Source: Methylobacterium sp. 17Sr1-1 (GTDB lineage: Bacteria; Pseudomonadota; Alphaproteobacteria; Rhizobiales; Beijerinckiaceae). Taken from it: a DNA stretch of 64,000 bases. The notes beneath the pieces are model-generated. The model saw nothing but the letters and a program-made list of their open reading frames with translations. It did not search any database and was not told the DNA's origin. Location of the stretch: positions 87,001-151,000 of the forward strand of contig NZ_CP029552.1 of the NCBI RefSeq assembly GCF_003173775.1, read 5' to 3'. How positions within the stretch are numbered: position 1 is the first letter of the stretch; each line of letters opens with the position of its first letter. A program made the translations under genes and the position numbers. This document shows positions 9,158 through 61,375 of this stretch, piece after piece.

Positions 9158-9293
9158 CCGGCATCGGGAGGCCGATGAGCGGAGACGCGTCTCCGCGGCG
9201 TGTTCCGGCGCGGCACCGGATATCCAGCCCGAAGCTTGTACGTCGAGCAAAAGAGATCTCCCGCTCGACGCCCCGTGCCGGCAGCGGCCGGCG

Positions 9294-12248
9294 TTAGACC
9301 GCCCGGATCTGGCACAACGTCGCCTTCGTCTCCTGCATCCCCGTGACCGGGTCGAAGCCGTAGGTGGTGACGGTGTTCACGCTCTCGCCGAGGACGACCG
9401 GGTCGGTGTCGCGCGGGTAGTATTCCCGCATGTCCCGTCCCTGGTACCAGCCCGAATAGTGGAAGGGCATGAAGGCGACGCCCTTGGCGACCCGGTCGGT
9501 GACCAGCGCCTTCACCTTGGTTTTGGCGGCGTTCTCCGGGCCGTAGACCCAGACGAACTGCCCGTCCTTGATGCCGCGCTCGGCCGCGTCCTGGGTGTTC
9601 ACCTCGACGAACATGTCCTGCTGCAACTCGGCGAGCCAGGGGTTCGAGCGGGTCTCCTCGCCGCCGCCCTCGTACTCGACGAGGCGGCCCGAGGTGAGGA
9701 TGATCGGGAACGCCTGAGCGATGCCGCGCTCGACCGCCGCCTGCTGCACCGAGAAGCCGACATTCGGCATGCGGAACTGCCGCTCGTCCGGCCGGGTCGG
9801 GTACTTCGCGACGAGGTCGGGCCGGGGCGTATAGATCGGCTCGCGGTGGACCGGCACCGGGTCGGGCAGGTTCCAGGCATTCGCCCGCGCCTTGCCGTTG
9901 CCGTAATGCATGACGCCGTGGTCGAGGCAGACCCGCTGGATGCCCCCCGACAGGTCGGTCGACCAGTTCACCGCGTCCGGGTTGCTGCCGCCGATCCGGG
10001 CGATGACCGCTTGTTCCTCCGGCGTCAGTTCCCGGTCCCAGCCGAGCTTGCGCATCACCGCCATGCTGAACTCGGGATACCCGTCGGTGAGGTCGGAGCC
10101 GAGCGAGAACGAGTCCTCGGCGAGCAGCGTCTGGCCGTTGCGCTCGGTGCCGAACCGGGCCCGGAAGGTGCCGCCGCCGTCCTTCACGTGGAGCGCCGTG
10201 TTGTACAGGATGGCGCTGCCGGGGTGCCGGATCTCGGGCTTGCCCCAGCACGGCCAGGGCAGGCCGTAATAGTCGCCGCCGACCTCGGGCGCGTCCTTCG
10301 GCGCGCGCAGGGTGACGATGTCGAAGACGTGCTGGTTGCGGATATGGGCCTTCAGCCGTTCCGGGCTCTGGCCGCAATAGCCCGTCGACCATCCGCCGCG
10401 GTTGATCTCCCGCAGGATGTCCTCCGCCAGGGGAACGTTGTTCTCGACCTTGATGTTCTTGAACAGCGCTTCCGCGAAGCCGAGCTTCTTCGCCAGCAGG
10501 TAGAAGAACTCGTAGTCGTTCTTCGACTCGAAGGCCGGCTTCACGATCTGCTCACCCCATTGCAGCGAGCGGTTCGAGGCTGTGCGGCAGCCGTCCATCT
10601 CGAGCGAGGTGCAGATCGGCATCAGGTAGGTGTTGTCGCGCCGGGCATTCAGGGCCGCGAAGGTGGTGGGGTGGGGATCGGCCACCACCAGGAGATCCAG
10701 CTTGTTGAGCCCGTCGAGGGCCTCGGGAAGGCGCGTGACGGTGTTGCCGCCGTGGCCTGAGATCATCATCGCGCGCAACCGGCTGCTCTGGTCGACTTGG
10801 GTTGCCGGCAGGTTCACGGCGTCGAACCACCGGGTCGAGGTGAGCCCCGGGGTCTCCATGTTCTCCTTGCGCGAGCGCGCCTTGCGGGACCCCGTGGCGG
10901 GCACCTCGTCGAAGCGCGACTGCAGCCAGTCGTACTCGACCTCCCAGACCCGGGCCCAGTGCTTCCAGCCGCCCTCGACGAGGCCGTAATAGAGCGGCAG
11001 GCTCGTCACATCGAGCCCCATGTCGGTGGCGCCCTGGACGTTGGTGTGGCCGCGGAAGATGTTCGCGCCCGTCCCCGGCTTGCCGACATTGCCGGTGGCC
11101 AGGCACAGGATGCAGAAGGCCCGCACGTTGGCGGTCCCCACCGTGTGCTGGGTCGCGCCCATGCACCAGATCAGGGTCGCGGGCTTCTCCTTGGCGAACA
11201 GTTCGGCGACGTGGCGCAGCTGTGCTCCCGGCACGCCGGAGACCCGCTCGACCTCGTCGGGCGTCCATTTCGCGACTTCCTCGCGCACGTCCTCCATGCC
11301 GTAGACGCGGCTCGCGATGAAGTCGCGATCCTCCCAGCCGTTCTGGAAGATGTGCCACAGCATGCCCCAGATCACCGGGATGTCGGTGCCCGACCGTAGG
11401 CGGACGTACTCGGTCGCGTGCGCCGCCGTGCGGGTGAAGCGTGGGTCGATGACGATCAGGTTCGCCCGGTTGATCTCCTTGCCCGAGAGGATGTGCTGCA
11501 TGGAGATCGGGTGGGCCTCGGCGGGGTTGCCGCCCATGATGATCATCGTCTTGGCATTGCGGATGTCGTTGTAGGAATTGGTCTGGGCGCCGTAGCCCCA
11601 GGTGTTGGCCACGCCCGCCACCGTGGTCGAGTGGCAGATGCGGGCCTGGTGGTCGACGTTGTTGGTGCCCCAGAACGCCCCGAACTTGCGCAGCAGGTAG
11701 GCGGCCTCGTTGGTGTACTTGGCCGATCCGAGCCAATAGACGGAGTCAGCGCCCGATTCCGCCCGGATCGCCAGGAGCTTGTCGCCGACCTCCTCGATCG
11801 CCTGGTCCCAGGAGAGGCGCTGCCACTCGCCGTTCACGAGCTTCAACGGATATTTCAGGCGCCGCTCGCTGGTGACGAGCTCGCGGATCGCCGCGCCCTT
11901 GGCGCAATGGGCGCCGCGGTTGATCGGGCTCTCCCAGGACGGTTCCTGGCCGACCCAGACCCCGTGGACCACCTCCGCCGTGACGGTGCAGCCGACCGAG
12001 CAATGGGTGCAGATGTTCTTGCGGATCACCGTCTCGGCAGGGTTCGCCGAGGAGCCGGCGGCCTCGGCCCGGCGCACGGCTCCGAGCCGCAACGAGCCGA
12101 GGCCCACGAGCCCGCCGGCGGTCAGGCCGGAGCGGCGGAGGAAGCTCCGACGGTCGAGGGCGGGCGTTCCCTCCTGGGGCACGGCGCTCCCGGGACGCAT
12201 CGGCTCTCGCCCGATCGCCTCAACCGTGCCTTTGCGTCGCATCAGCAT
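9294..12248 (-). CDS. fdhA: Molybdopterin formate dehydrogenase, alpha (catalytic) subunit, Tat-exported
   Basis: 984-residue catalytic subunit oxidising formate to CO2 at a molybdenum bis-MGD centre, probably in the periplasm. It starts with a long n-region and a twin-arginine signal (DRRSFLRRSGLTAGGLVGLG). A 4Fe-4S site follows (CTHCSVGCTV and a fourth cysteine in GAHCAKG). The molybdenum ligand position reads ARICHSTTVAG, with an ordinary TGC cysteine (C205) where E. coli FdnG has selenocysteine. The C-terminal molydopterin-dinucleotide-binding domain includes PIILTSGRLVEYEGGG. It resembles the FDH3-type enzyme of methylobacteria. No iron-sulfur beta or cytochrome b subunit gene lies on either side, so electron-acceptor subunits must be elsewhere or absent. 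The ATG at 12248 is favoured over longer in-frame extensions, which lack coding character. Confidence 0.93.
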   Translation of the reverse strand: MLMRRKGTVEAIGREPMRPGSAVPQEGTPALDRRSFLRRSGLTAGGLVGLGSLRLGAVRRAEAAGSSANPAETVIRKNICTHCSVGCTVTAEVVHGVWVGQEPSWESPINRGAHCAKGAAIRELVTSERRLKYPLKLVNGEWQRLSWDQAIEEVGDKLLAIRAESGADSVYWLGSAKYTNEAAYLLRKFGAFWGTNNVDHQARICHSTTVAGVANTWGYGAQTNSYNDIRNAKTMIIMGGNPAEAHPISMQHILSGKEINRANLIVIDPRFTRTAAHATEYVRLRSGTDIPVIWGMLWHIFQNGWEDRDFIASRVYGMEDVREEVAKWTPDEVERVSGVPGAQLRHVAELFAKEKPATLIWCMGATQHTVGTANVRAFCILCLATGNVGKPGTGANIFRGHTNVQGATDMGLDVTSLPLYYGLVEGGWKHWARVWEVEYDWLQSRFDEVPATGSRKARSRKENMETPGLTSTRWFDAVNLPATQVDQSSRLRAMMISGHGGNTVTRLPEALDGLNKLDLLVVADPHPTTFAALNARRDNTYLMPICTSLEMDGCRTASNRSLQWGEQIVKPAFESKNDYEFFYLLAKKLGFAEALFKNIKVENNVPLAEDILREINRGGWSTGYCGQSPERLKAHIRNQHVFDIVTLRAPKDAPEVGGDYYGLPWPCWGKPEIRHPGSAILYNTALHVKDGGGTFRARFGTERNGQTLLAEDSFSLGSDLTDGYPEFSMAVMRKLGWDRELTPEEQAVIARIGGSNPDAVNWSTDLSGGIQRVCLDHGVMHYGNGKARANAWNLPDPVPVHREPIYTPRPDLVAKYPTRPDERQFRMPNVGFSVQQAAVERGIAQAFPIILTSGRLVEYEGGGEETRSNPWLAELQQDMFVEVNTQDAAERGIKDGQFVWVYGPENAAKTKVKALVTDRVAKGVAFMPFHYSGWYQGRDMREYYPRDTDPVVLGESVNTVTTYGFDPVTGMQETKATLCQIRAV

Positions 12249-12459
12249 GAGCTTGCTCCCGAAGCGCGGTTTTCGCTCACGCGCGGCGGGACGCGGCCAC
12301 TCATCGGCAGCCAGGTTCGAGTGCCGGGAGCGCGTGGCCCGGCCAGCATCCCGAATCCCGGCGAAGGCGCGTTCACGCTCGTTAATCATCGCGATGAAAT
12401 CTCGCGCGGACCTGACCTTGCGTGGACTTGGCTGGTGCGCATGAACGCGACGCGGGCCG

Positions 12460-13518
12460 TCACATCCGGCGACGGCTGGTCTCGCCGAACCGCTCAGCGA
12501 CTCGCGGCGGCCTGCCTGCAAACCTGTGCCGCGCGAAACCCACCAGCCCGGCCAGGATCGCGAGCCCGGCGAGGGCCGATACGGTGGCGCGGCCAACCCG
12601 GCGGGTGGGCTGGCCCCAGCCGCCCCGCGCACCGGTCCCCTCGCGCATCGGACCGTACAGGATCCCGTCGGACGGTGGCGCGTCCGGGCCGGACTCCAGC
12701 AGGAACCGGCGGGCGAGGCCCGCTACGGCGCGCCCGGTCGTGTCCGGCGCCAGCGCGTAGGGACCCGCGAGGGCGTGGTGCAGCCCGAGACGGACCGCCC
12801 GCCGGGGCCGGCGCGCGAGGGACACCATTGCCTCGGCCACCCGCTCGGGAGTGAGGACGGGCGGGACGGGCCGCAGGGCGCGCCCGGTATAGTTCGCCGA
12901 GTGGATGTCGGTCGGCGTGTCGACGAAGCCCGGGTAGACGCCGCACACCGCGATGGCACTCGCCGCCAGTTCGTCGCGCAGCGCCTCCGTGAACCCGGTC
13001 ACGCCGTACTTGCTGGCGCTGTAGGCCGCCGCGAACGGCATCGGCAGGCGGCCGCCGAAGGACGAGACGTTGATGATCACGCCGCGCCCGCGGGGGCGCA
13101 TGACCCGGAGAGCGGCGTGGCTGCCGTTCATCACGCCGATCAGGTTCACGGCGATCAGGCGGTTCTGATGCGCGATCGGGATGGTGGCGAACGCCCCCCA
13201 GAGGCTCAGGCCGGCGCCGTTGATCCAGACGTCGATGCCACCGAAGGCGGCCTGCGCCGCCTCCGCGACGGCGTGCATCCGCTCGGGATCGGTCACGTCA
13301 GCCTCGATCGCGAGCGCCCTCGCGCCGAGGTCCTCGCAACGGCGCGCCAGCCGTTCGAGCGGCGCGCGCCGACGCGCGACCAGAACCAGGGCGGCGCCCC
13401 GGGGCGCGAAGGCCAGGGCGGCCGCCCATCCGATCCCGCTGGACGCGCCGGTGATCACGACCGTCCGTCCTGCGAAATCCCTCGCCCCGTCATCGCTCGG
13501 CCTGTCGTCTCTCGCCAT
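12460..13518 (-). CDS. Short-chain dehydrogenase/reductase with C-terminal membrane anchor
   Basis: 352 residues. A classical SDR Rossmann domain has the cofactor motif TGASSGIG near residue 24, NGAG around residue 100, the catalytic serine in IINVSSFGG and the YSASK tyrosine/lysine pair. The region after residue 250 is not part of the standard fold and ends in a hydrophobic segment (VSALAGLAILAGLVGFA) followed by a basic tail, so the enzyme is probably anchored to the inner membrane. Substrate unknown. It is divergent from the SPW pair. A GGAAC-N16-GGTT match upstream (13709-13733) hints at general stress control, as reported for similar SDR genes in this group. Confidence 0.88.
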   Translation of the reverse strand: MARDDRPSDDGARDFAGRTVVITGASSGIGWAAALAFAPRGAALVLVARRRAPLERLARRCEDLGARALAIEADVTDPERMHAVAEAAQAAFGGIDVWINGAGLSLWGAFATIPIAHQNRLIAVNLIGVMNGSHAALRVMRPRGRGVIINVSSFGGRLPMPFAAAYSASKYGVTGFTEALRDELAASAIAVCGVYPGFVDTPTDIHSANYTGRALRPVPPVLTPERVAEAMVSLARRPRRAVRLGLHHALAGPYALAPDTTGRAVAGLARRFLLESGPDAPPSDGILYGPMREGTGARGGWGQPTRRVGRATVSALAGLAILAGLVGFARHRFAGRPPRVAERFGETSRRRM

Positions 13519-57929: not shown

Positions 57930-60900
57930 ATGAGCGGCGGGGCGGAAGCGGCGGAGCGGACGGGCGGCGGCATCGCTCCGGCGGCGGGCGGAGCCCCGGC
58001 GCGCGGGGACCGCGCCGCCGGGCGGGACCAGGCGCAGGATCGGGCGCAGGATCAGATCGCCGCCGCCCGGTCCGGCAACGACCCGGAAGCCGGCGACGCC
58101 TCCGGCGGCCTCGACCGCAGCCTGTTCCGCTACATCTGGCGCCACTCGAAGCGCGACCAGATCCTGATCTGCGCCGTCGTGCTGGCCTCGCTGCCGCTCT
58201 ACTTCGCCTCCCTCGACCTGCCGCGGCGCATCGTCAACGAGGCGATCCAGGGCCACGCCTTCGAGAAGGGCAACGAGACCGCCAAGTTCCTGGTGCTGCG
58301 CCTGCAGATGCCGGACTGGTTCGGCCACGACATCGCGCTGTTCTCCGGCTTCGACGTCGACCGGTTCGAGCTGCTGTTCGGGCTCTCGTCGATGTTCCTG
58401 CTGCTGGTGCTGATCAACGGCGCCTTCAAGTACTGGATCAACGTGGCGAAGGGGGCGCTCGGCGAGCGCATGCTGCGGCGCCTGCGGTTCCAGCTGTTCT
58501 CGCTGATCATGCGCTTCTCGCCCGACGCGCTGCGCCACACCAAGGCCTCCGAGGTCGCGACGATCATCCGCGACGAGGTCGAGCCGATCGGCGGATTCAT
58601 CGGCGACGCCTACATCCTGCCGGCCTTCCTCGGCACCCAGGCCGCCACCGCGATGGCGTTCATCCTGCTCCAGAACGTCTGGCTCGGGCTGCTCGCCGCC
58701 GGCGTCGTCGGGGTGCAGTTCGTGGTGATCCCCCGCCTGCGGCGCGAATTGCTGCGCCTCGGGCGCCAGCGCCAGCTCGCCTCGCGCCGCCTCGCCGGCC
58801 GGGTCGGCGAGGTGGTGGACGGCATCGCGGCGGTGCATTCCAACGGGGCCGAGGCCTGGGAGCGGGCCGAGATCGGCCACCGCCTCGGCGGCCTGTTCGA
58901 CCTGCGCCTGCGCATCTACCGGCGCAAGTTCATGGTCAAGTTCCTGAACAACCTGCTCGCGCAGATGACGCCGTTCCTGTTCTACTGCATCGGCGGCTAC
59001 TTCGCGCTCAAAGGCCAGCTCAGCATCGGCCAGCTCGTGGCGGTGATCGCCGCCTACCGCGACCTGCCGCCGCCCCTGAAGGAGCTGATCGACTGGGACC
59101 AGCAGCGCCTCGACGTGCAGGTGAAGTACGAGCAGGTGCTGCAGCAATTCCTGCCCGAGCGGCTGCTCGGGCTCGACGCGCCGGGGCGCGACGACTCGCT
59201 CTGCGGCCGGCTCGCCGCCGAGGGCGTCGGCGTCCAGGAGCCGCACGGACCGGTGCTCGCCAACGTCTCCCTCTCGCTGCCGCTTCCGGCGCTCGTCGGC
59301 ATCGTCAGCGACGGCGGTCCGGCCGCCTCGACCTTCGCGCGGGTGCTGGCGCGGCGCACGGTGCCGACCTCCGGGCGGATCACCCTCGAGGACCACGACC
59401 TCGCGGAATGGTCCGGCGCGGCGCTCACCCGGCGCATCGCCTATGCGGGGGTCGACCCGATCCTTTTTCCGGGATCCTTGCGCGACAACATCGTCTACGG
59501 CCTCAACCGCCGGCCGCCCGAGGGCGCCGCCGCCGACGCGAAGGTGCTCGCCGAGGCCCGCCGCACCGGCAACCCGGTCGAGCCGTTCCCGGCCGACTGG
59601 ATCGACTACGCCCAGGCCGGCGTCGCGGACGCCGCCGCCCTCGACGCCCTGATCCTCGACTGGCTCACCCGCATCGGCATGGGCGAGGAGGTCTACCGCT
59701 TCGGCCTCCTCGGCCAAGTCGATCCCGAGCGCCATCCGGACCTCGCCGCCCGGCTGATCGAGGCGCGGATCGCCTTCCGCGAGCGCCTGGCGGCGGAGGG
59801 GCACGCGAACCTCGTCGAGCCGTTCGACCCCGCCCGCTACAACCGGCAGGCGACGGTGGCCGAGAACCTGCTGTTCGGCGTGCCGACCACCACGGCGCTG
59901 ACCGGGCGGGCGCTCGCCGAGCACGCGGTGGTGCGCCTCGTCCTCGACCGCACCGGGCTCGCGGACGACCTCGTCACCATGGGCGAGCGGATCGCCGCCA
60001 CGATGCTGGAGATCTTCCGCGGCCTGCCGAGCGGGCACCCGCTGTTCGAGCAGTTCTCGTTCCTCTCCGCCGACGAGCTGCCGGAATTCGAGGCGATCCT
60101 CGCGCGCCGCACCGCCACCGAGGCCTCCGCCGAGCGGCACGGCGGCGGCACGCTCAATCGGATCCGGCGGCGCTGGATCGGGCTCGGCCGCTACGGCTCG
60201 GCCGACGCGACCCGGCTCATCGCCCTGCCGCTCGCCTATATCGAGCCCCGCCACCGCCTCGGCCTGATCGACGACGCGTTTCGCGACCGGCTGGTCGCGG
60301 CGCGGGCCGAGCTGCGCGCCGCCCTCGACGAGGCCGGGATGGGGGGCGTCGACTTCTACGACCCCGACCAGGTCTGCGCCGCCGCGCCGTTGCGCGACAA
60401 CCTGCTGTTCGGCCGCATCAACCAGTCAGTCGCCGACGCCGTCGAGACCGTGACGGCGACCGGCACCGCCCTGGTGCAGGAGATGCAGCTCGCCCCCGCC
60501 ATCACCCGGGTCGGGCTCGACCACCAGGTCGGCCCCGAGGGGCGCTTCCTGTCGAGCGTGCAGCGGGCGGTGGTGAGCCTGGTGCGGGCGCTGATCCGCC
60601 GGCCGGACCTGCTCGTCCTCGACGGCGCCCTGTCGCCGATGGGCGAGAACCGCGCCCGCACGGTGCTGGGCCTGCTGCTGGAGCGGTACGGGCGCGAGAA
60701 CAGCCTCGTGGTGGTGCTGCCGAACGACCGCGTCGCCGACCGGTTCGCCCTGGTGCTGCGGGCCGCCGGCACGCAGATCCAAGGGCCGGAGAGGCCCGGC
60801 CCTGGTGCGGCGTCCCCCGAAGAGGCGCCGGCGGGGGCTGGCGTTGCGGCGCCGGCTGCGGCAGTCTCCGCACGCGCCGAGGACGAGACGGGGCCGGAAC

Positions 60901-60932
60901 CGGCGCGCGTCGAGCAGGATGTGAAGGCATGA
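57930..60932 (+). CDS. ABC-transporter-like membrane protein with degenerate, expanded nucleotide-binding domain (pseudo-ABC)
   Basis: 1000 residues. A disordered Ala/Gly-rich N-terminus (1-62) precedes an ABC_membrane-type domain with six hydrophobic segments (about 65-355). The ATPase-like part starts near 425. Its Walker A position reads GIVSDGGPAASTF (about 457-469), with alanine where lysine is needed. The signature is LSSVQ (874-878) and Walker B is LLVLDG with G899 replacing the catalytic glutamate. Between Walker A and the signature are about 400 residues instead of roughly 100. That span holds three copies of the post-Q-loop segment: LRDNIVYG (517-524), VAENLLFG (643-650) and LRDNLLFG (821-828). 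ATP hydrolysis looks lost. The stop overlaps the next gene by ATGA. Cargo and function unknown. Confidence 0.9.
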   Translation: MSGGAEAAERTGGGIAPAAGGAPARGDRAAGRDQAQDRAQDQIAAARSGNDPEAGDASGGLDRSLFRYIWRHSKRDQILICAVVLASLPLYFASLDLPRRIVNEAIQGHAFEKGNETAKFLVLRLQMPDWFGHDIALFSGFDVDRFELLFGLSSMFLLLVLINGAFKYWINVAKGALGERMLRRLRFQLFSLIMRFSPDALRHTKASEVATIIRDEVEPIGGFIGDAYILPAFLGTQAATAMAFILLQNVWLGLLAAGVVGVQFVVIPRLRRELLRLGRQRQLASRRLAGRVGEVVDGIAAVHSNGAEAWERAEIGHRLGGLFDLRLRIYRRKFMVKFLNNLLAQMTPFLFYCIGGYFALKGQLSIGQLVAVIAAYRDLPPPLKELIDWDQQRLDVQVKYEQVLQQFLPERLLGLDAPGRDDSLCGRLAAEGVGVQEPHGPVLANVSLSLPLPALVGIVSDGGPAASTFARVLARRTVPTSGRITLEDHDLAEWSGAALTRRIAYAGVDPILFPGSLRDNIVYGLNRRPPEGAAADAKVLAEARRTGNPVEPFPADWIDYAQAGVADAAALDALILDWLTRIGMGEEVYRFGLLGQVDPERHPDLAARLIEARIAFRERLAAEGHANLVEPFDPARYNRQATVAENLLFGVPTTTALTGRALAEHAVVRLVLDRTGLADDLVTMGERIAATMLEIFRGLPSGHPLFEQFSFLSADELPEFEAILARRTATEASAERHGGGTLNRIRRRWIGLGRYGSADATRLIALPLAYIEPRHRLGLIDDAFRDRLVAARAELRAALDEAGMGGVDFYDPDQVCAAAPLRDNLLFGRINQSVADAVETVTATGTALVQEMQLAPAITRVGLDHQVGPEGRFLSSVQRAVVSLVRALIRRPDLLVLDGALSPMGENRARTVLGLLLERYGRENSLVVVLPNDRVADRFALVLRAAGTQIQGPERPGPGAASPEEAPAGAGVAAPAAAVSARAEDETGPEPARVEQDVKA

Positions 60933-61375
60933 CGCTTGAGACCGAGGTGCAGTCGCTGCGCCAAGTGCCGATGTTCCGCGAGGTGGATCCGGCCCGCCTG
61001 AAGCTGCTCGCCTTCACCAGCGAGCGGGTGCACTTCGCCGACGGGCAGCGCTTCTTCGACCGGGGCGACGCGGCGGATGCGGCCTACCTGATCCTGGAGG
61101 GCGAGGCGGCCGTCACGCTCGACGGGCCGCAGGGGCCGATCCGCCTGGCGCTGCTCGGCGCCAACGCCCTCGTCGGCGAGATGGGCATCCTGGCCGACCA
61201 GCCGCGCTCCGCCACCGTGACCGCGGTGGTGCCGACGACGGCGCTCCGCATCGATCGGCGGGTCTTCCTCGAGCTCCTGAGCCAGTTCCCGCAGATCGCC
61301 ATCGCGGTGATGCGCGAACTCGCCCACCGCCTCGAGATGACCAACCAGCAGCTCGCCCAGACGCGGACCGGCTGA
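60929..61375 (+). CDS. Stand-alone cyclic-nucleotide-binding-domain protein
   Basis: 148 residues comprising one cNMP-binding beta-barrel and short helices. The phosphate-binding cassette GEMGILADQPRSATVTAV has the conserved glutamate, arginine and alanine-threonine of cAMP/cGMP-binding domains; AYLILEGEAAVTL is the preceding strand pair. No helix-turn-helix follows, so it is not a Crp-type regulator. The start overlaps the pseudo-ABC stop (ATGA), indicating coupled translation and a probable physical partnership. Ligand binding is likely but not shown. Confidence 0.88.
   Translation: MTLETEVQSLRQVPMFREVDPARLKLLAFTSERVHFADGQRFFDRGDAADAAYLILEGEAAVTLDGPQGPIRLALLGANALVGEMGILADQPRSATVTAVVPTTALRIDRRVFLELLSQFPQIAIAVMRELAHRLEMTNQQLAQTRTG

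Follow-up and report, generated by a model that had tools for sequence, protein, structure and literature searches.

Degenerate ATPase motifs, a triplicated segment and a cyclic-nucleotide-binding partner in a pseudo-ABC membrane protein family of Alphaproteobacteria

A gene pair of Methylobacterium sp. 17Sr1-1 encodes a pseudo-ABC membrane protein and a small cyclic-nucleotide-binding (cNMP) protein. Sequence comparison shows that the former is built on the type IV ABC-exporter fold, that its ATP site is lost throughout the family, and that a segment beginning just past the Q-loop and running to the signature helix is present in three successive copies; the gene is kept together with that of the cNMP protein, and a glycosyltransferase cluster accompanies it in most of the genomes sampled. 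The chances are about even that the protein serves a surface-glycan or glycolipid pathway as a membrane component that works without ATP hydrolysis and that would be switched by its cNMP subunit.

The gene pair and its degenerate ATPase motifs

The window, meaning the whole analysed stretch of 64,000 nucleotides (G000:C1:87001-151000), belongs to a 6.54-Mb Methylobacterium genome, and its closest named matches include, among the matches listed, M. frigidaeris, M. platani and M. tarhaniae at 91-94% identity. The pseudo-ABC protein (1000 aa) is encoded at 57930..60932 on the forward strand, as are all features given below, and its ABC-exporter-type membrane domain occupies residues 61-415 (58110..59174). 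Pfam recognises ABC_membrane with E 1.7e-14 and ABC_tran with E 8.8e-10, the second split in two stretches of which 443-534 is the best; the membrane-domain fold of ABC exporters and the nucleotide-binding-domain fold were both found, and no NCBIfam model reached its cut-off among the best 25 of 102. An ATGA start/stop overlap (60929..60932) joins the gene to the next one, which, as the earlier note held, codes for a stand-alone cyclic-nucleotide-binding domain protein of 148 aa (60929..61375), matched by Pfam cNMP_binding (PF00027) with E 1.4e-19 and 70.2 bits against a cut-off of 27.5; none of the NCBIfam models listed for it was matched at cut-off. Its phosphate-binding cassette VGEMGILADQPRSATV (residues 82-97, 61172..61219) has the Gly-Glu and the Arg in place, in agreement with the intact cassette read before.

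Degeneration of Walker A, Walker B and the signature had been described in the membrane protein and was found exactly there: Walker A reads SDGGPAAST (residues 460-468, 59307..59333) with A466 in place of the lysine, the signature reads LSSVQ (874-878, 60549..60563), and Walker B reads LLVLDG (894-899, 60609..60626), where D898 is kept and G899 stands where the glutamate is expected. Two further losses can be added to that list, namely V508 for the glutamine of the Q-loop (AGVDPI, residues 506-511, 59445..59462) and P931 for the histidine of the H-loop (VVLPND, residues 928-933, 60711..60728). With the lysine, the glutamate, the signature glycines, the glutamine and the histidine all missing, the usual ATP-driven closure of the dimer would be impossible, and the loss of these motifs suggests that the protein no longer uses ATP.

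The motifs were followed through a family alignment of 192 members, with 8 exporters from the window's genome as a yardstick; 31 sequences that duplicated others or were contained in them had been removed, as had L201 (436 aa). An earlier alignment had taken in 8 of the 9 exporter loci of the same genome; it was made without L001 and L118, which are copies of the window gene itself, without 7 duplicates and without L128 (583 aa). The full ATPase set (lysine followed by S/T, with DE and the H-loop histidine) was carried by none of the 192 members versus 8/8 yardstick exporters, all of which are canonical. Homologues with intact Walker motifs, which would have spoken for a merely decayed copy, were thus absent among the 192, and the window gene is therefore not one decayed copy. 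Single residues survive here and there: Q-loop Gln in 16/192, an SGG[QE] signature in 2/192, the Asp of Walker B in 101/192, its Glu in 38/192 and both (DE) in 5/192, the H-loop His in 26/192, and lysine, glutamate and histidine jointly in 10/192.

ATP may still be bound and left unhydrolysed, and 37 of the 192 members keep the Walker A lysine. An exporter that ATP continues to drive or gate through unusual nucleotide-binding residues, perhaps one that binds the nucleotide but does not hydrolyse it, is rather improbable, since the window copy is without lysine, glutamate, signature glycines, glutamine and histidine at once, and the residue after the kept lysine is acidic in 29 of the 37; lysine with S/T is found in 4/192. 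The loss is graded, as the lysine-keeping rows of the tree come from the class-wide searches and the near relatives of the window keep none of K, E and H. On this FastTree tree, which was used loosely (117 of 191 rows, membrane-domain columns, four exporters as an outgroup on long branches), the lysine accounts for 12 changes and the cNMP arrangement for 4, the latter counted on rows with a known state only.

The triplicated segment and its spread

Three motifs of one type had been read after the Q-loop position, and all of them are present: LRDNIVYG (517-524), VAENLLFG (643-650) and LRDNLLFG (821-828). The pattern [DE]N[ILV][LIVM][FY]G occurs three times in the protein, where 5000 shuffled versions average 0.0006 occurrences each, and in 158/192 family members all three motifs keep both their Asn and their Gly. 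Each motif opens a unit. Unit 1 (residues 517-631, 59478..59822) leads from LRDNIVYG to a helix at 603-622 and a strand at 629-631, unit 2 (residues 643-809, 59856..60356) from VAENLLFG to a helix at 782-801 and a strand at 807-809, and unit 3 (residues 821-899, 60390..60626) from LRDNLLFG to the signature helix and the Walker B strand. In the predicted structure, where two stretches of the membrane domain have pLDDT < 50, these form three consecutive units, each with a short helix, helices, a long helix and a strand. Profile comparisons of the repeats scored 28-89 against shuffled maxima of 13-22, one pair excepted. The equivalence of the three elements, on which the earlier note had made its reading depend, thus holds in predicted secondary structure and in the profile comparisons and fails in one of six fine comparisons (735-830 vs 830-912, 12.5, not above the control of 13.7).

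Structure searches with the full model in Foldseek gave low TM-scores (0.2-0.4 of the query). With the insert folded alone, 47 of the 50 VIA rows listed are ABC transporters of the exporter fold (best Z 5.5), and 45 of these 47 align over a single stretch of about 70 residues; Foldseek returned no match for it below E 0.001, comparison with PDB sequences none up to E 1, and a Pfam scan of 63 members two weak single-member matches only.

The family is broadly distributed in its class. Related loci at E 1e-60 occur in 23 of 41 near genomes, the own genome counted; GTDB contigs hold at least 580 confirmed related stretches, of which the best 80 were used, and related loci stand in 262 plasmid records, mainly of Rhizobium (144) and Sinorhizobium (80), the annotated ones labelling the family genes as ABC transporter ATP-binding, permease or transmembrane-domain proteins. 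A profile search for the insert, suggested at the outset and made with 25 sequences, matched 131 of 385 genomes of the class, and 31 of 398 in a phylum sample, all of the same class or closer, so an intact ancestor beyond the class was not found among these 398 genomes. Frames are open in the listed matches, save one with a stop and a few that are split. In S. meliloti, SMb20813 is given as an msbA homologue in the available portion of PMC10945364; it may be the S. meliloti member of the family.

The cNMP partner and the glycosyltransferase neighbours

Coupling to a cNMP protein, proposed from the window, recurs across the class: in 40 of 40 class-wide loci the domain is encoded in the next gene (33) or fused (7), these loci being the author's choice from the 131 genomes with a match; they are spread over 38 families, with f40 represented three times, and long contigs were given preference. 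In a wider survey of 175 loci, where some genes appear twice and distance was taken to the matched domain, a cNMP domain lies downstream on the same strand in 120, in 103 of these within 56 nt of the stop, and is fused at the C terminus in 15. The remaining 40 loci have no downstream cNMP match; they are 38 Methylobacterium loci, L097 and L109, in the last of which a cyclase match stands 55 nt away in place of the domain. With one cNMP match per locus, that of highest score, the phosphate-binding cassette was found to keep its Gly in 121/121 sequences, its Glu in 112/121 (Asp in 8) and its Arg in 119/121, with more divergence in the fused domains of family f40 and of its Ruegeria and Sulfitobacter kin.

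Loss of the partner in the Methylobacterium loci without a cNMP neighbour was considered and is unsupported: all 13 such genomes, whose pseudo-ABC protein is of the 52-60% type, carry a 77-85% identical cNMP gene elsewhere. Ten further Methylobacterium genomes each have a copy at 79-81%. In 4/4 inspected loci the unlinked cNMP gene adjoins a homologue of the window's VOC gene, which belongs to the neighbourhood of the window's own pair, and the other neighbours tested from the window were not found beside it in these four. This is consistent with a membrane gene that was moved or replaced and a cNMP gene left in place. The insert profile detects the pseudo-ABC protein in 24/24 Methylobacterium relatives, including seven without a match at E 1e-60, and the cNMP gene occurs in all 26 Methylobacterium genomes tested, with a pseudo-ABC gene in each; the genus therefore gives no contrast for co-inheritance. 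In seven genomes of other genera without the pseudo-ABC gene the best cNMP matches are just 26-34% identical, which relatedness may explain.

On annotated plasmids the pair is surrounded by genes for glycosyltransferases, an NDP-sugar dehydrogenase, a polysaccharide deacetylase, cyclases and an importer of the Opp-type ABC class. With these plasmid neighbour proteins as seeds, many class-wide loci were seen to share one divergent layout, in which GT1, GT2, GT4, a histidine phosphatase, GT3 and the deacetylase face the pseudo-ABC and cNMP genes. By seed matches above 80 bits, at least two of the four glycosyltransferases are nearby in 29 of the 40 class-wide loci and not in 11, the histidine phosphatase in 27/40 and the deacetylase in 22/40. 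GT1 of L180 has a counterpart (E 1e-30) in 127 of the 385 genomes; 124 genomes hold both it and the pseudo-ABC gene, 7 the pseudo-ABC gene only, 3 GT1 only and 251 neither. Relatedness, which the Fisher test ignores, inflates this association, and the p-value is not to be read literally. The recurrent cluster is the strongest clue to function, and its genes point to a lipid-linked glycan as the cargo or client.

No glycosyltransferase seed match was found in the window itself, and the glycosyltransferase cluster of its genome is unlinked to the pair (C1:3.06 Mb); a pseudo-ABC paralogue, followed by a metallo-beta-lactamase-fold gene, lies at C1:4.468 Mb. Among Methylobacterium loci without a cNMP neighbour, glycosyltransferases adjoin in L091-L094 and L225 and not in L110-L113 and L242. 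Class III cyclases number 13 in the window's genome; they lie near 4/40 class-wide and 8/80 GTDB loci, counts that stand without a matched control, and in L050, L066, L074, L078, L099 and L203 a match comes after the cNMP gene in the same orientation. The glycosyltransferases are similar to EpsE and WcaL models, with scores short of the cut-offs; a scan of the seven non-importer seed proteins against NCBIfam gave no match at cut-off, and Pfam returned nothing for the deacetylase of L180.

Constraint, proposed function and known systems

Selection was measured as Nei-Gojobori dN/dS between the window gene and 11 relatives. Against the seven nearest (L039-L043, L045, L049) the membrane domain ranges over 0.05-0.15, the region around Walker A over 0.13-0.29, the insert over 0.11-0.24 and the C-terminal half over 0.07-0.21. 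In 10 of the 11 comparisons, all but that with L049, the lowest value is that of the membrane domain; against L044, L047 and L048 the values outside it rise to 0.30-0.74, with the peak around Walker A. Both tails are relaxed, and that at the C terminus exceeds 1 in several comparisons. From this pattern the core is therefore under purifying selection, which is weakest around the lost ATP site. Decay of a single copy is ruled out by this low core dN/dS along with the motif sets lacking in every aligned member. A decaying gene without function, as the loss of catalytic motifs might imply, has a negligible likelihood in view of the same low values, the family-wide conservation and the open frames in most listed matches.

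The pseudo-ABC protein is probably a dimer, like other half-exporters, and the cNMP subunit would dock onto the enlarged helical region, the part that in ordinary exporters meets the coupling helices of the membrane domain. Binding of cAMP or cGMP, rather than ATP-driven closure of two nucleotide-binding domains, would then change the state of the membrane domain; the kept cyclic-nucleotide cassette and the enlarged helical region point to the cNMP subunit as the present switch. The membrane domain may let a lipid-linked glycan cross or equilibrate, in the manner of a flippase, or it may hold and switch glycosyltransferases as a scaffold, and the first option is slightly favoured, given that constraint is strongest in the membrane domain. 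In its most specific form, a cyclic-nucleotide-gated, ATP-independent lipid-glycan flippase at the cell surface of Alphaproteobacteria in which the tandem-triplicated helical subdomain and the cNMP subunit replace the nucleotide switch, the proposal is tentative.

A regulatory scaffold or receptor only, which moves nothing and relays a cyclic-nucleotide signal to the glycosyltransferases or to the nearby Opp-type importer, is possible without being probable. The lost ATPase motifs, the enlarged cytoplasmic domain with its cNMP partner and the linkage to the cluster all fit it, as does an Opp-type ATPase seed match above 80 bits near 22 of the 40 loci, some of which may be other ABC ATPases; the membrane domain is, however, under more constraint than would be expected of a mere anchor.

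In comparison with the type IV half-exporters MsbA, BmrA, Sav1866, PCAT1 and TAP, the pseudo-ABC protein is without the Walker A, Walker B Glu, Q-loop, signature and H-loop residues, and it adds a repeat insert of about 290 residues and the cNMP partner. To our knowledge, families with complete exporter architecture and a catalytic set lost in all sampled members are hardly documented. Re-use of ABC proteins as a regulator or channel is known from SUR and CFTR, both of which still bind ATP; SUR2B is a fold match of the pseudo-ABC protein, and we know of no cNMP subunit or repeated subdomain in SUR or CFTR. The cNMP proteins of TIGR03896 and TIGR03797 are tied to bacteriocin-type ABC exporters that have working ATPase domains. 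The window's cNMP protein scores 36.2 bits against the TIGR03896 cut-off of 161.05 and is not a member, and the available portion of PMC2887384 makes no mention of a tie between a cNMP protein and a bacteriocin-type exporter.

The neighbouring genes are like those of bacterial exopolysaccharide clusters in their EpsE- and WcaL-resembling glycosyltransferases and, by record annotation, in the NDP-sugar dehydrogenase and deacetylase; we know of no system with the combination seen at these loci. No description of the pseudo-ABC family was found in the open-licence full-text literature, and PMC6180224 and PMC5539429, as far as their available parts go, give context only. Exporters with degenerate sites are already known, and ABCB11 and TM287/288 likewise retain the fold with catalytic residues partly lost (PMC7544095, in the part available). 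Since one site is degenerate in several such exporters (same source), the protein might pair with an active half encoded at another locus and be the degenerate side of a heterodimeric exporter. This is very improbable: ABCB11 and TM287/288 keep one active site, whereas the pseudo-ABC chain loses all, with signature and Walker motifs lost on the same chain, so that neither composite site would be complete; no canonical half-exporter is found among the recurrent seed genes of the neighbourhoods, where the ABC genes are Opp-type.

The ATP-independent component switched by its cNMP subunit looks like a pump re-purposed for signal-controlled work and, if the proposal is true, would represent an ABC exporter lineage that abandoned ATP. 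The family would then be a natural experiment in the control of an ABC membrane domain without ATP, and a widespread alphaproteobacterial glycan pathway, that of Rhizobium and Sinorhizobium included, may be under cyclic-nucleotide control.

Divergent paralogue in the same genome

A divergent paralogue of the pseudo-ABC protein (an ABC-exporter-like membrane protein with degenerate ATPase motifs) is located in the window's own genome, at 9166-13227 of locus L223, that is, at about 4468165-4472226 of NZ_CP029552.1. On its 3' side stands not the gene for a stand-alone cyclic-nucleotide-binding (cNMP) domain protein but one for a protein of the metallo-beta-lactamase fold, and the reading frame of this gene opens no more than 4 nt away. 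The class III cyclase domain scoring best in this genome lies about 5 kb upstream of the paralogue.

Family members on pNYY1_4 and pSymB

A pseudo-ABC gene without a cNMP gene is carried by the M. radiotolerans plasmid pNYY1_4 (L176, 2826-5621), a 48.5-kb replicon typed as mobilizable, and a gene pair annotated as a VapC-type toxin-antitoxin system is found near it. On pSymB of Sinorhizobium meliloti 1021 (L174) the family member, at about 841702-844339 of the record, occupies two frames and its match is split in two pieces; other S. meliloti records give the match in two pieces for some and in one piece for others.

Fused and separated cNMP partners

Pseudo-ABC copies fused to the cNMP domain are present in Ruegeria and in genomes of the alphaproteobacterial family f40 (L179, L219, L232), in the conserved gene row DUF6478, cNMP-fused pseudo-ABC, CPBP protease, accD, folC and zapE. 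In G194, a genome of f40, the pseudo-ABC family is represented by three members. In four Methylobacterium genomes (L246-L249) the cNMP gene adjoins a homologue of the VOC gene that neighbours the window pair, and the pseudo-ABC gene is located elsewhere, as if one partner of the pair had been moved or replaced.
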